Part shown: piece by piece, positions 5,596 to 9,600 of the stretch | How the letters are laid out: every line of letters begins with the position of its first letter | How positions within the stretch are numbered: position 1 is the stretch's first letter | Origin: Geopseudomonas sagittaria | GTDB lineage: Bacteria > Pseudomonadota > Gammaproteobacteria > Pseudomonadales > Pseudomonadaceae | DNA: 64,000 nt | Assembly: GCF_900115715.1 (NCBI RefSeq) | Contig: NZ_FOXM01000002.1 | Span: forward strand, 310,001 to 374,000 | Direction: 5' to 3' | Position numbers and translations under genes: made by a program | Notes under the pieces: model-generated | What the model saw: the letters and a program-made list of their open reading frames with translations, nothing else | Databases searched by the model: none | Told to the model about the DNA's origin: nothing

Positions 5596-5612
5596 AAAAC
5601 AACAACAAGAAG
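5596..5612 (+). promoter_or_regulatory. A-rich Hfq/Crc (catabolite activity) motif before the ligase start
   Basis: The sequence AAAACAACAACAAGAAG, a run of AAN triplets, overlaps the ribosome-binding region of the acyl-CoA ligase, whose ATG is at 5624. In Pseudomonas such AANAANAA motifs at translation starts are bound by Hfq with Crc to block translation under catabolite repression (established knowledge). Function here is inferred from the motif, its position and the catabolic nature of the gene. Confidence 0.6.
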
Positions 5613-5623
5613 AGGGAATCAAC

Positions 5624-7261
5624 ATGCTCGAAGGTCTGATGCAGAAGGCGCCGCTGCTGATCAGCGGCATCCTCACCCATGCCGCCAGCGCCCATGGTGA
5701 CACCGAGATCGTATCGCGGCTGGTCGACGAGCCGCTGTGGCGCTACGACTACCGGGGCCTGGCGACCCGCGCCGCCCAGGCCGCGGCGCTGCTGCAGCGC
5801 CTGGGCATCGGCGCCGGCGATTGCGTGTCCTCGCTGGCCTGGAACACCCATCGCCACTACGAGCTGTTCTTCGCCGTACCGGGCATCGGCGCGGTACTGC
5901 ACACCGCCAACCCGCGGCTGGCCGACGAGCAGATCGCCTACACCCTCAACCACGCCCAAAGCAGCGTGCTGCTGTTCGACCGCAGCTTCGCGCCCATCGT
6001 GGCGCGACTGCTGCCGCAGCTGGCACACATCCGCCACTTCATCGTGCTGTCGGACCGCGACTGCGACGCGCCGGGCGAGGTGCCGGCGCCCAGCTACGAG
6101 ACGCTGATTGCCGCCGAGCAGCCGCTGGCCTGGCCGAGCTTCGACGAGAACGCCGGCGCGGTGCTCTGCTACACCTCGGGCACCACCGGCGATCCCAAGG
6201 GCGTGCTGTACAGCCATCGCTCGGTGGTCCTGCACGCGCTGGCCGCCGGGCTGAGCGGCGCGTTCGGCCTGTCGGCCTTCGACTGCGTGATGCCGTGTTC
6301 CTCGCTGTACCACGGCACCGCCTGGGGCCTGCCGTTCGCCGCGGCGATCAACGGCTGCAAGTTCGTCCTGCCCTGCGACAAGATGGACGGCCGCAGCCTG
6401 CAGGAACTGATCAAGAACGAGGGCGTGACCTTCTCCGGCGGCGTGCCGACCATCTGGACCATGTACCTCGACCATCTGGAGCGCAGCGGCGAGGACGCCG
6501 GCAGCCTGCAGCGCCTGGTGATCGGCGGTTCCGCCGTGCCGCGGGCGATGGCCGAGAAGTTCCAGGGCAAGTACGGGGTGACCATCCGCCAGTTGTGGGG
6601 GATGACCGAGACCAGTCCGCTGGGGGTGATTTCGACGCCGACGCCGAAGCTGGCCGCTCGTGGCCAGCAGGCCACCGACGAGGTGATCTGGACCCGCCAG
6701 GGTCGCCTGCAGTTCGGCATCGAGCTGAAGATCGTCGACGAGGACGGCTTTGAGCTGCCGCGCGACGGCCAGACGCCCGGCCAGCTGCTGGTGCGCGGCC
6801 CGTGGACCATCGAGCGCTATTTCCGCAGCGAGAAGAGCGCCCTCGACGCCGATGGCTGGTTCGACACCGGCGACATCGCCACCCTGGATGGCGACGGCTT
6901 CATGCGCATCACCGACCGCAGCAAGGACGTGATCAAGTCCGGCGGCGAGTGGGTCAGCTCGATCGACATCGAGAACGTCGCCGCCGCCTGCCCGGGAGTG
7001 AAGATCGCCGCGGTGGTCGGCGTGTTCCATCCCAAGTGGGAGGAGCGCCCGCTGCTGGTGATCGAGCCGCACCACGATGTGAGCATCTGCGTGCACAGCG
7101 TGCTGGCCCACCTCGAGCCGCACATCGTCAAGTGGTGGATGCCCGATGCGGTGGTCATCGACCAGGTGCCGCTGACCGCCACCGGCAAGATCAACAAGAA
7201 GCTGCTGCGCGAGCGTTACCGCGACCATCTGGTCAGTGGCGAACAGGCGGAGGGTATCTGA
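5624..7261 (+). CDS. Acyl-CoA ligase (AMP-forming), AlkK-like
   Basis: ANL-superfamily ligase of 545 residues that activates a free carboxylic acid to acyl-CoA via an acyl-AMP. Motifs include the P-loop-like CYTSGTTGDPKGVLYSHRS (about residue 183 on), WGMTETSP, DGWFDTGDIA and the C-terminal TGKINKK with the catalytic lysine. Length and phrase-level similarity (YSHRS, IKSGGEW) resemble the medium-chain AlkK ligase of alkane-degrading Pseudomonas. The ATG is preceded by AGAGGGA. Its TGA shares one base with the ATG of the following racemase-like gene, so the two are translationally coupled. Confidence 0.9.
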   Translation: MLEGLMQKAPLLISGILTHAASAHGDTEIVSRLVDEPLWRYDYRGLATRAAQAAALLQRLGIGAGDCVSSLAWNTHRHYELFFAVPGIGAVLHTANPRLADEQIAYTLNHAQSSVLLFDRSFAPIVARLLPQLAHIRHFIVLSDRDCDAPGEVPAPSYETLIAAEQPLAWPSFDENAGAVLCYTSGTTGDPKGVLYSHRSVVLHALAAGLSGAFGLSAFDCVMPCSSLYHGTAWGLPFAAAINGCKFVLPCDKMDGRSLQELIKNEGVTFSGGVPTIWTMYLDHLERSGEDAGSLQRLVIGGSAVPRAMAEKFQGKYGVTIRQLWGMTETSPLGVISTPTPKLAARGQQATDEVIWTRQGRLQFGIELKIVDEDGFELPRDGQTPGQLLVRGPWTIERYFRSEKSALDADGWFDTGDIATLDGDGFMRITDRSKDVIKSGGEWVSSIDIENVAAACPGVKIAAVVGVFHPKWEERPLLVIEPHHDVSICVHSVLAHLEPHIVKWWMPDAVVIDQVPLTATGKINKKLLRERYRDHLVSGEQAEGI

Positions 7262-8346
7262 TGAAGACCAACCCGGGACCGCTGGCCGGCCTGCGCGTGC
7301 TCGAGTTCGCCAGCATCGGCCCCGGGCCGCACTGCGCCATGCTGCTCGCCGACATGGGCGCCGACGTGGTGCGCATCGAGCGCGAGGGCGGCAACGGCTG
7401 GCCCAATCCGGTGGCCGACCGCGGGCGCTCGGTGCTGGTGCTGGACATCCGCAGCGAGGCGGGGCGCGCGCGCTGCCTCGAGCTGGCCGAGCAGGCCGAC
7501 GTGCTGATCGAGGGCTTCCGGCCCGGGGTGATGGAGCGCCTCGGCCTGGGGCCGGAGGTGCTGCGGGCGCGCAACCCGCGGCTGGTCTACGGGCGCATGA
7601 CCGGTTGGGGGCAGACCGGCCCTCTGGCCAAGACTGCCGGCCACGACATCAACTACATCGCCCTCACCGGCGCGCTGGCCGCCATCGGTGGGCGCGAGGG
7701 CGGGGCGATTCCGCCGCTCAACCTGGTCGGCGACTTCGGCGGCGGCTCGATGTTCCTCGCCTTCGGCATCATGACCGCGCTGTGGGAGCGCGAGCGCTCG
7801 GGGCAGGGCCAGGTGGTGGATGCGGCCATCGTCGACGGGGTGTCTTCGCTGATGAGCTTCTTCGCCGGCAGCAGCCTGGATCTTTCGCGCGAGCGCAACC
7901 TGCTCGGCGGCGCCGCGCCGCATTACCGCTGCTATAGATGCGCCGACGGCCGCGAGATCGCCATCGGCCCGCTGGAGCCGCAGTTCCAGCGCGAGCTGCT
8001 CGACCGCATCGACGCGCCGGAACACCTCTATGTGGGGGTGGAGGACCCGGGCAACTGGGCGGCGCACGCCCAGTGCCTGGCTGAGTTGTTCGCCAGTCGC
8101 ACCCAGGCCGAGTGGTGCGCGCTGCTGGAAGGCAGCGATGCCTGCTTCGCGCCGGTGCTGGCGCTGAATGAGGCGTCGCAGCATGCGCACCTGCAGGCGC
8201 GTGGGGTGTATCAGGAGCTCGAAGGGAGGCTGCAGGTGGCGCCCGCACCGCGCCTGTCGCGCACGCCGGGCCAGGCGCGGCCTTCGCGCCGGTTGGAGGC
8301 GGACGCGCCGGTGTGGGCGCCGGTAACGGAGTGTCAGCCCGGCTGA
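7261..8346 (+). CDS. CaiB/BaiF family protein, alpha-methylacyl-CoA racemase-like
   Basis: Class III CoA-transferase-fold protein of 361 residues. The sequence matches the alpha-methylacyl-CoA racemase (AMACR) branch better than formyl-CoA transferases. The N-terminus is LEFASIGPGPHCAMLLADMG, followed by GHDINY and GDFGGG, which carry the His and Asp acid/base pair of AMACR. Racemases of this type interconvert 2R- and 2S-methylacyl-CoA so that stereospecific acyl-CoA dehydrogenases can act. Placement as the last gene of an operon encoding a ligase, dehydrogenases, hydratase and thiolase suits that role. A CoA-transferase activity cannot be excluded from sequence alone. Confidence 0.82.
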   Translation: MKTNPGPLAGLRVLEFASIGPGPHCAMLLADMGADVVRIEREGGNGWPNPVADRGRSVLVLDIRSEAGRARCLELAEQADVLIEGFRPGVMERLGLGPEVLRARNPRLVYGRMTGWGQTGPLAKTAGHDINYIALTGALAAIGGREGGAIPPLNLVGDFGGGSMFLAFGIMTALWERERSGQGQVVDAAIVDGVSSLMSFFAGSSLDLSRERNLLGGAAPHYRCYRCADGREIAIGPLEPQFQRELLDRIDAPEHLYVGVEDPGNWAAHAQCLAELFASRTQAEWCALLEGSDACFAPVLALNEASQHAHLQARGVYQELEGRLQVAPAPRLSRTPGQARPSRRLEADAPVWAPVTECQPG

Positions 8347-8393
8347 CGGTCAGCGCGGCGTACGGCGGCCTGCCTGGAGTAGCCGCAAGGAAT

Positions 8394-8460
8394 GTAACCC
8401 TACCGCTCGTTTTGTTACCGCGCCGTTGCGCCGTAACGGCGGCTGGGACCCCTGGTAACG
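8394..8460 (+). promoter_or_regulatory. CbrB-type upstream activating site(s)
   Basis: TGTTAC at 8413-8418 and GTAACG at 8433-8438 form an interrupted palindrome with exactly 14 bases between arms. Further half-sites are GTAACC at 8394-8399 and GTAACG at 8455-8460. A TGTTAC-N14-GTAACA arrangement is what I recall for CbrB sites ahead of crcZ/crcY in Pseudomonas. The pair lies about 100 bases upstream of the sigma-54 promoter, a normal distance for an enhancer. Confidence 0.65.
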
Positions 8461-8535
8461 GATCGCCGGTTTTTTTCTGCCCGCTGGCGTTCGCCAAAAT
8501 CAGCAAGTGATTGATTTTAAAGGGTTTTAAAAAGT

Positions 8536-8550
8536 TGGCACGGCATCTGC
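8536..8550 (+). promoter_or_regulatory. Sigma-54 (RpoN) promoter of the Crc-decoy RNA
   Basis: TGGCACG at 8536-8542 followed by four bases and CTGC ending at 8550 matches the -24/-12 consensus TGGCACG-N4-TTGC at all but one position. The invariant GG and GC are at correct spacing. Transcription would begin about 11-12 bases on, near 8561, where the A-rich RNA starts. Confidence 0.8.
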
Positions 8551-8560
8551 TTTAGTATTC

Positions 8561-8945
8561 GCACAACAAAAACAAGAACACTGCTCCAACACAATAAAAA
8601 CAAGACGTAACGGCTCCAACACAACAAGAACAACAGGGTGGAGGCGCAGCAAACCGATTTTTTTGGAGAGGAGTTGCCCGATAGGGTTCTCCCTCGACCG
8701 GACCGAGAACAATAAAACTGCCCCGAGGCAGCGGCCACGACCGGTTGAACCCGCAAGGGTAGCGGCAACATCAGCGTCCAAAAAAATACGTTTGTTCTTT
8801 AGTCCCTCCTTGGGACTTCAACCGGGCCATGGAGTCCGGGCGGGCAACCAACAAGAACAACAAGCCTGTACCAACAAGAAGAACACAGCACGACCGACTT
8901 CAAGGGGGAGCCTAGGCTCCCCCTTGTGCTATCTGCGTTTCGGTT
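8561..8945 (+). ncRNA. CrcZ/CrcY/CrcX-like regulatory RNA (Hfq/Crc decoy)
   Basis: About 385 bases without a convincing protein frame. At least five or six A-rich CA motifs of the AACAAGAACAAC type are visible: at 8563-8580, 8594-8606, 8616-8633, 8707-8715, 8849-8864 and 8870-8884. The 5' end GCACAACAAAAAC resembles CrcZ. The transcript is preceded by a sigma-54 promoter and CbrB-like site and ends near a 24-base perfect palindrome at 8902-8925. In Pseudomonas such RNAs sequester Hfq/Crc and relieve catabolite repression (established). The absence of cbrAB next door argues against naming it crcZ itself; crcY or crcX is possible. The 3' end is estimated. Confidence 0.82.
8902..8945 (+). terminator. 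Terminator-like hairpin of the Crc-decoy RNA
   Basis: Perfect palindrome 8902-8925 with arms AAGGGGGAGCCT and AGGCTCCCCCTT, followed by a T-rich but interrupted tail ending in GGTTTTT near 8946. The stem is very stable. The T run is displaced, so termination may occur a little downstream of the stem. Confidence 0.6.
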
Positions 8946-8988
8946 TTTCTGCCCAGCGCTGCAGTCTGTGACCGGCAGGCAGGGGAAT

Positions 8989-9600
8989 TTACTGAGCCTC
9001 CACGGTCACGGCAAATTCCGAGTCCTGGCGAATCACTACCTCGCGATTGAGGTACTTGGGCTTGATCTTCACATCCGGACGGACCTTGTAGGTACGGCTG
9101 CTGCCATCGGCAAACTGCAGGGTGGCGGTGTGCGCGTTGGTGTCGATCGCCTTGACCACGGCGATGGTCGTATTGGTACCGGCAACCAGCAGGCCCGGCT
9201 TGCTGCCTTCCGGCGGGGTCAGCACCATCGCCGCCCCTTCCAGGGACTCCTCCTCGGCTTCGCCCGGTTCGCGCAGGTAGATGCTGCTTTCCACCTTCTT
9301 CGTCGCCGTCAGCTTGTCGCCAACCGCCAGTTGCGGGTAGTTGCGCATTTCCGGCGGGGCCGTCACGGTACGCCGATTGCCCTGCTCATCCTCAAGAGTA
9401 AAGGTGCGCTTGCTGCGGTCGAGAGCGACCACCGTTGCCTTGACTGTCTCCTCCTCGATGAGGATGCCGCCAGGTACGCCCTCGGCAGCGACGGCGCTCT
9501 GGCTGACCGTCCCGGTCAGTGACTGGTTGTCGGTTTGGCTGGCGCAGGCACCGAGCAGGGCGATGCTGAGCAGCAGGGGAAGGTTGCGAATCAGGGGCAT
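8989..9600 (-). CDS. Predicted outer-membrane or periplasmic lipoprotein
   Basis: Protein of 203 residues beginning with a signal peptide and a clear lipobox LLGACAS, so the mature protein would be lipidated at Cys19. The rest is soluble and beta-rich. It contains two repeat-like segments, VKATVVALDRSKRTFTLED and IAVVKAIDTNAHTATLQF, each resembling the small OB-like domain found in periplasmic proteins of unknown function. A good AAGGAG ribosome-binding site precedes the ATG. It is transcribed toward the Crc-decoy RNA and appears to be a single-gene unit. I do not recognise a specific function. Confidence 0.75.
   Translation of the reverse strand: MPLIRNLPLLLSIALLGACASQTDNQSLTGTVSQSAVAAEGVPGGILIEEETVKATVVALDRSKRTFTLEDEQGNRRTVTAPPEMRNYPQLAVGDKLTATKKVESSIYLREPGEAEEESLEGAAMVLTPPEGSKPGLLVAGTNTTIAVVKAIDTNAHTATLQFADGSSRTYKVRPDVKIKPKYLNREVVIRQDSEFAVTVEAQ

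Follow-up and report, generated by a model that had tools for sequence, protein, structure and literature searches.

A CrcZ-family RNA gene beside a probable fatty-acid operon

The window, a stretch of DNA of 64,000 bases, contains an intergenic region at positions 8347–8988 that is bounded by the end of a CoA-transferase reading frame at 8346 and by the stop codon of a convergent, minus-strand, lipoprotein-like reading frame at 8989. The original prediction had described a gap without a convincing gene at this position, holding a small RNA of the CrcZ/CrcY/CrcX type, and the flanking reading frames bear out the limits of that gap; some ORFs in the ORF list lie within the RNA interval. Upstream, on the plus strand, lie an acyl-CoA ligase gene (5624–7261), which matches the Pfam family AMP-binding and the NCBIfam model NF004837, long-chain-fatty-acid--CoA ligase (513 bits, cut-off 476), and the last gene before the RNA, which encodes a family III CoA-transferase of the CaiB/AMACR type (7252–8346; Pfam CoA_transf_3, 269.8 bits) and matches no NCBIfam model above its cut-off. 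The ligase and CoA-transferase genes probably constitute a fatty-acid operon. The lipoprotein-like ORF (8989–9600, minus strand, from the ORF list) has no Pfam or NCBIfam match at an E value of 0.001.

In pseudomonads, carbon catabolite repression is known to be relieved by CrcZ-type RNAs. The original prediction proposed a search with the Rfam CrcZ covariance model, and an Rfam scan places a full-length match to CrcZ (RF01675) at 8563–8956 on the plus strand, which scores 287.4 bits against a gathering cut-off of 95 and covers positions 1–398 of the 398-position model. This match is the sole one above cut-off in all 64,000 bases of the window, and the interval first pointed to, 8536–8945, comprises the promoter and almost the entire RNA. 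The anticipated CrcZ-like 5′ end, GCACAACAA, is found at 8561–8569. Six separate stretches of the form AANAANAA, predicted to be A-rich Hfq motifs, lie on the plus strand within 8563–8956, at 8565–8578, 8593–8603, 8623–8633, 8708–8715, 8850–8863, and 8873–8883. Dinucleotide shuffles (n = 2000) hold 0.59 such motifs on average and four at most, none reaching six, and the claim of several A-rich motifs is thereby sustained. Both strands of the window together contain 14 stretches of this form, including the six same-strand motifs of the RNA and one before the ligase gene. Near the 3′ end, the expected 24-base palindrome, AAGGGGGAGCCTAGGCTCCCCCTT at 8902–8925, is the inner part of a 26-base palindrome (8901–8926, plus strand, found by self-match) that constitutes the terminal hairpin. 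CrcZ of P. aeruginosa is given as 407 nucleotides with six A-rich stretches in the available part of its description (PMC4063720).

The upstream elements of the promoter, all on the plus strand, were compared across 27 CrcZ loci from eight genomes of the host genus, with positions given relative to the start of the model match. A sigma-54 promoter of the form TGGCAC-N6-TGCT, TGGCACGGCATCTGCT, occupies 8536–8551 and differs by one base, in its −12 part, from the sigma-54 consensus, TGGCAC-N5-TTGCW, in keeping with its first description as near-perfect; TGGCA[CT]-N6-TGC is present at −27 in 27/27 loci. Three predicted CbrB subsites lie further upstream, each at its usual place in all 27 loci: F1, TGTTAC (8413–8418; at −149 to −151), R1, GTAAC (8433–8437; at −128 to −131, with GTTAC in locus L007), and R2, GTAAC (8455–8459; at −107 to −109). 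In CbrB targets of P. putida, as far as the accessible text goes, the F1, R1, and R2 subsites are spaced 20–25 bases apart (PMC6296734), and the subsites of the window, which start at 8413, 8433, and 8455, follow the same order and spacing. The combination that marks members of the family, a sigma-54 promoter with CbrB subsites, is therefore present (8413, 8433, 8455, and 8536), and control by CbrB is predicted from it. In addition, an IHF-like box, YAANNNNTTGATW (8504–8516), presumed from the IHF consensus, is found at −59 in 22 of the 27 loci and in 0.24% of mononucleotide-shuffled upstream regions. The CbrB enhancer (8413–8459) and the IHF-like box, as well as an A-rich motif before the ligase gene that is discussed below, extend the original prediction. 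A promoter scan returned a single weak sigma-70 match, on the opposite strand. Sequence, structure model, and promoter anatomy together uphold the assignment to the CrcZ/CrcY/CrcX type: the RNA of the window is a genuine CrcZ-family RNA, ordinary in kind, and with high confidence we read the region as a complete, probably active decoy RNA gene of this type.

The RNA resembles CrcZ, which is found behind cbrB in Pseudomonas and Azotobacter, in its length, its six A-rich motifs, its sigma-54 and CbrB boxes, and its terminal hairpin. The main difference is location. CrcZ sits between cbrB and pcnB, whereas the window copy lies behind acyl-CoA genes in a host that has a standard crcZ as well. Because it follows a CoA-transferase gene and not cbrB, the window copy is a CrcY/CrcX-like paralogue and not crcZ proper. 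CrcY (P. putida, A. vinelandii, and P. stutzeri) and CrcX (P. syringae) are likewise second or third copies located away from cbrB. According to the parts of the literature available, P. syringae carries CrcZ, CrcY, and CrcX, P. putida and A. vinelandii carry two such RNAs, and P. stutzeri A1501 carries CrcZ and CrcY; the order cbrA-cbrB-crcZ is termed highly conserved in the accessible portion of a review (PMC8871633). Linkage of crcY is described with PP3539, a LiuR homologue, in P. putida and with convergent hypothetical genes in A. vinelandii (both from the available part of PMC6292655), and the acyl-CoA neighbours of the window copy differ from the neighbours so described.

The host genome (4.6 Mb, 44 contigs) contains three full CrcZ copies: the window copy, one in a gap between LysR-type and EVE-domain genes, and the standard crcZ, which occupies the gap between cbrB and pcnB. 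Similarity among the three spans from F1 (locus positions 1347–1351) to the terminal hairpin (1867–1879) and stops there, which defines a shared cassette of 517–529 bases with 81–84% identity. The cassette is composed of enhancer, promoter, RNA, and hairpin jointly, an extent that points to duplication as a unit. Given two other copies in the genome, the window copy might be a silent duplicate, a paralogue that is decaying without function. This explanation is very improbable, as the window copy scores highest of the 27 CrcZ copies of the genus, its promoter is intact in every part, and seven of the eight genus genomes retain the locus.

The protein partners of a decoy RNA of this type, CbrB, Hfq, and Crc, are encoded by the host, CbrB and Crc being putative assignments based on gene order. 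Hfq is identified by the NCBIfam model NF001602 (144.4 bits, cut-off 95). A weak second Hfq-domain match is observed at L156 (G000:C41:52869-53060; 33.3 bits, cut-off 27). A sigma-54 activator gene directly precedes crcZ and pcnB, and we take its product to be CbrB from this order. A Crc-like protein is encoded beside pyrE- and rph-like genes and is presumably Crc in view of these neighbours, which are themselves putative assignments. No NCBIfam model for CbrB or Crc matched; the Crc-like protein appears in that search as exodeoxyribonuclease III.

The R2 subsite of the window falls within a weak terminator-like stem (8452–8469) that is followed by seven T. Such a site is at chance level, with two found in 8200–9100 and 1.4 expected. 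In all six crcZ loci of the genus, R2 lies inside a strong hairpin that is then followed by T, and a run of at least five T remains in 5 of the 21 non-crcZ loci, the window included. A scan of 20 of the 27 loci, a number limited by size, found the Rfam family P36 (RF01679; cut-off 36 bits) in all six crcZ loci with scores of 28.5–47.5 bits, four of them above cut-off; among the 14 other genus loci, a single one gave a match (26 bits), and this was not the locus of the window; in a smaller search, the window gave 13.6 bits with an E value of 9.4. These observations are suggestive only of a cbrB terminator that persists as a fossil in the dispersed copies. P36, which is listed as an sRNA, maps onto the cbrB terminator and the CbrB boxes before crcZ (L154 3924–3984; six genus crcZ loci), and may be a cbrB-crcZ regulatory element rather than a separate RNA.

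Within the host genus, a CrcZ copy lies behind the CoA-transferase gene in seven of eight genomes; G001 has no transferase match at an E value of 1e-100. The lipoprotein gene is found in six of the eight, with relatives in Pseudomonas linyingensis (87% identical) and Pseudomonas sp. A-1 (76%) that are both directly adjoined by CrcZ. Among 18 lipoprotein-bearing genomes outside the genus, no CrcZ was detected within about 1.5 kb of the lipoprotein by BLAST with the window copy, and three of these loci were also scanned with Rfam. Confinement of the locus to the genus was considered and then overturned by a search with the CoA-transferase, which revealed linked copies in a second genus, g15 (17 of 41 genomes), probably Stutzerimonas, the stutzeri group. 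These 41 genomes are a sample drawn from more, scanned using Infernal with stricter filters. Two CrcZ copies are present in 19 of them, and in 17 of the 19 the second copy is located 176–1983 bases behind the transferase gene on the same strand; the remaining two have no transferase match at an E value of 1e-100. Sixteen of the 33 transferase-bearing g15 genomes have a single CrcZ and no linked copy. In the five linked g15 loci that were checked, F1, R2, and the sigma-54 promoter are at their usual places in all five and an exact R1 in four. One g15 genome has a membrane-protein-like ORF of 72 residues (L171 2886–3104) between the CoA-transferase gene and CrcZ. Of 20 CrcZ regions from six other genera, eight hold cbrB and pcnB, and the other twelve contain no ligase, transferase, or lipoprotein at an E value of 1e-20 within the 7.5–9 kb fetched. 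The suggestion of a new locus for this RNA family is thus correct in part: the site differs from the cbrB locus and, as far as the available sources describe them, from the crcY loci of P. putida and A. vinelandii. It recurs, however, in seven of eight genus genomes and 17 of 41 g15 genomes, and it may be the "crcY" of the stutzeri group.

The close placement of the RNA and the operon allows for another origin of the transcript. In the window, the RNA is on the same strand as the transferase gene, 216 bases behind its stop codon, and only the chance-level terminator stands between them. The decoy could then be, in whole or in addition, the processed 3′ end of the operon mRNA generated by read-through, such that a target mRNA would carry its own decoy. 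Precedents for both steps, read-through into crcZ from the upstream gene and a processed form of P. putida crcY, are described in the accessible parts of PMC6292655 and PMC8871633. Against this origin, which we consider unlikely, the gap between transferase and CrcZ measures at least 859 bases in 15 of the 17 linked g15 genomes, with a small ORF inside the gap in the one that was read, and a complete CbrB/sigma-54 promoter leaves no need for read-through. Transcription of the decoy from its own promoter remains the preferred reading.

The operon itself carries a candidate Hfq/Crc target site. The A-rich motif AACAACAACAAGAA (5598–5611, plus strand) lies at −26 to −13 from the ATG of the ligase gene. 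A AANAANAA motif before the ligase start is present in 5/5 genus genomes checked, the host of the window included, out of seven with the transferase (the motif of P. linyingensis was read by eye), and in 17/17 g15 genomes checked out of 33, nine of them with and eight without a linked decoy. The available part of PMC4063720 describes repression by Hfq through such A-rich stretches at ribosome binding sites. With the motif at the ligase start in 22/22 genomes across both genera, the operon is a probable Hfq/Crc target, and by its sequence it would probably be one with or without a linked decoy. A trans-acting titrant RNA need not be close to its target.

Phylogenetic trees bear on how operon and decoy came to be linked in two genera. 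In the CbrB tree, from which L218 is omitted for want of a CbrB hit, 29 g15 rows are united in a clade of their own (99/97), separate from the genus. In a transferase tree of 48 rows, 17 linked g15 rows and seven genus rows form a group (95/89) that excludes 17 unlinked g15 rows; the linked rows represent 15 of the 17 gap-scan genomes and two from another search, and the tree omits G197 and G238 (linked, locus not fetched) and three of six distant transferase loci. The linked transferases of both genera thus group together, whereas the CbrB proteins are apart, which suggests transfer of a block. The 48-row run came with warnings that there were long branches and that the bootstrap had not settled. 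With a subset of 28 rows, support for the grouping is only 76/55, but the placement of all g15 rows in one clade is rejected (p-AU 0.001). A ligase tree (22 rows, without an outgroup) parts the same three groups and does not indicate the root.

The RNA tree agrees only in part with block transfer. Five linked g15 copies group with 25 genus copies (100/98), away from five g15 crcZ copies, and a single clade of both g15 loci is rejected (p-AU 9e-9); L009 and L019, from G001, are omitted from the RNA trees for their long branches. A clade of same-locus copies across both genera is also rejected (p-AU 0.0002), as is one restricted to the seven such copies of the genus (p-AU 0.003), and an arrangement with all genus copies together and the linked g15 copies outside is not rejected (p-AU 0.19). 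As the RNAs from this locus do not come out as a clade, exchange or replacement of copies within the genus is probable. Mean identity is 82.5% for 35 same-genome pairs and 84.9% for 51 pairs that share a locus but come from different genomes; a reading of these similar means as an absence of exchange between copies was dropped upon the rejection of the same-locus clade.

That ligase, CoA-transferase, and decoy passed as a transferable module between the genus lineage and part of g15 is a tentative proposal to which we assign somewhat less than an even chance. It is favoured by the linkage in 17 of the 19 two-copy g15 genomes, by the branch that unites linked transferases of both genera together with the rejection of one g15 clade, by the joining of linked g15 RNAs with genus RNAs to the exclusion of g15 crcZ, and by a CbrB tree that keeps g15 whole. 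It is weakened by the reduced support in 28 rows and the warnings in 48, and by the rejected same-locus RNA clades and the genus-together arrangement that survives; moreover, such trees could stem from ancient paralogy with differential loss, or from exchange between copies. Transfer of operon plus decoy is therefore a first guess of the history, to which old paralogy with losses is the alternative.

Copy number sets the host genus apart. Its eight genomes hold two to five full-model CrcZ matches each (27 loci), with five in G003 and four each in G004 and G007. Across the family, CrcZ is matched in 391 of 398 genomes, with copy counts based on at most three candidates scored per genome. Thirty-eight genomes were rescored, including 25 outside the genus with at least three hits; 24 of these 25 have three, and the other, G338, has five hits, three of which are short pieces. 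Four or more full copies are thus found in three of the eight genus genomes and in none of the other genomes sampled, those with fewer than three hits being counted mostly from the first scan. In G004, two CrcZ copies (L146 4802–5194 and 11175–11568) share a strand and are separated by about 6 kb that includes the lipoprotein gene, and a sulfatase-like gene, recognized by eye, lies outside the lower copy. CrcZ copies in G003 (L141 3013–3405) and G004 (L147 3000–3399) are near a sigma-54 activator with an ACT-type N terminus, which appears TyrR/PhhR-like by eye and shares 48–53% identity with CbrB in part of its sequence. In genus g6, a second CrcZ match (G012:C11:735107-735354; 65 bits, below cut-off) may be a strongly diverged copy.

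Two genomes of the host genus, from two species, G005 (Pseudomonas sp. A-1) and G006, have no crcZ behind cbrB, and about 140 bases remain up to pcnB (L259 and L258, respectively). Pattern matching in this gap turned up neither a CbrB box nor a sigma-54 promoter nor an A-rich motif, and a search for CrcZ gave no hit at an E value of 1; the same search recovered crcZ at 276 bits in the control locus of the host of the window, and G006 is a single contig. Both genomes retain three other copies, one of them at the locus of the window, a situation that is hard to explain if dispersed copies are idle. Redundant copies may be weakly expressed. A bolder proposal, that an Hfq/Crc-repressed fatty-acid operon and a CbrB-driven decoy form a self-contained transferable module, which would have spread between genera as a block and become part of a decoy set replacing standard crcZ in some species, is a speculation that we regard as rather doubtful.

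Taken as a decoy RNA gene with its own promoter, the locus would function as follows. When good carbon sources are exhausted, CbrA/CbrB and sigma-54, probably with IHF, would transcribe from 8536–8551. The resulting RNA of about 395 bases would present its six A-rich sites to the distal face of Hfq and titrate the Hfq/Crc repressor off catabolic mRNAs. The mRNA of the upstream operon, with the A-rich site before the ligase start, would probably be one of the relieved targets.

The CrcZ family is well known; what makes the present copy of interest is where it sits and how the family behaves in the genus. A literature search with partial coverage yielded, in the texts available, no account of the acyl-CoA-linked locus, no genome with more than three copies, and no case of crcZ missing behind cbrB, a silence that is weak evidence of newness. 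In a genus with two to five copies, in which the standard crcZ is sometimes missing, the reason for having several decoys becomes testable. Candidate reasons are dosage, different promoters, and service to a neighbouring operon, and one concrete candidate comes from the association with a predicted target operon, which is seen in two genera.
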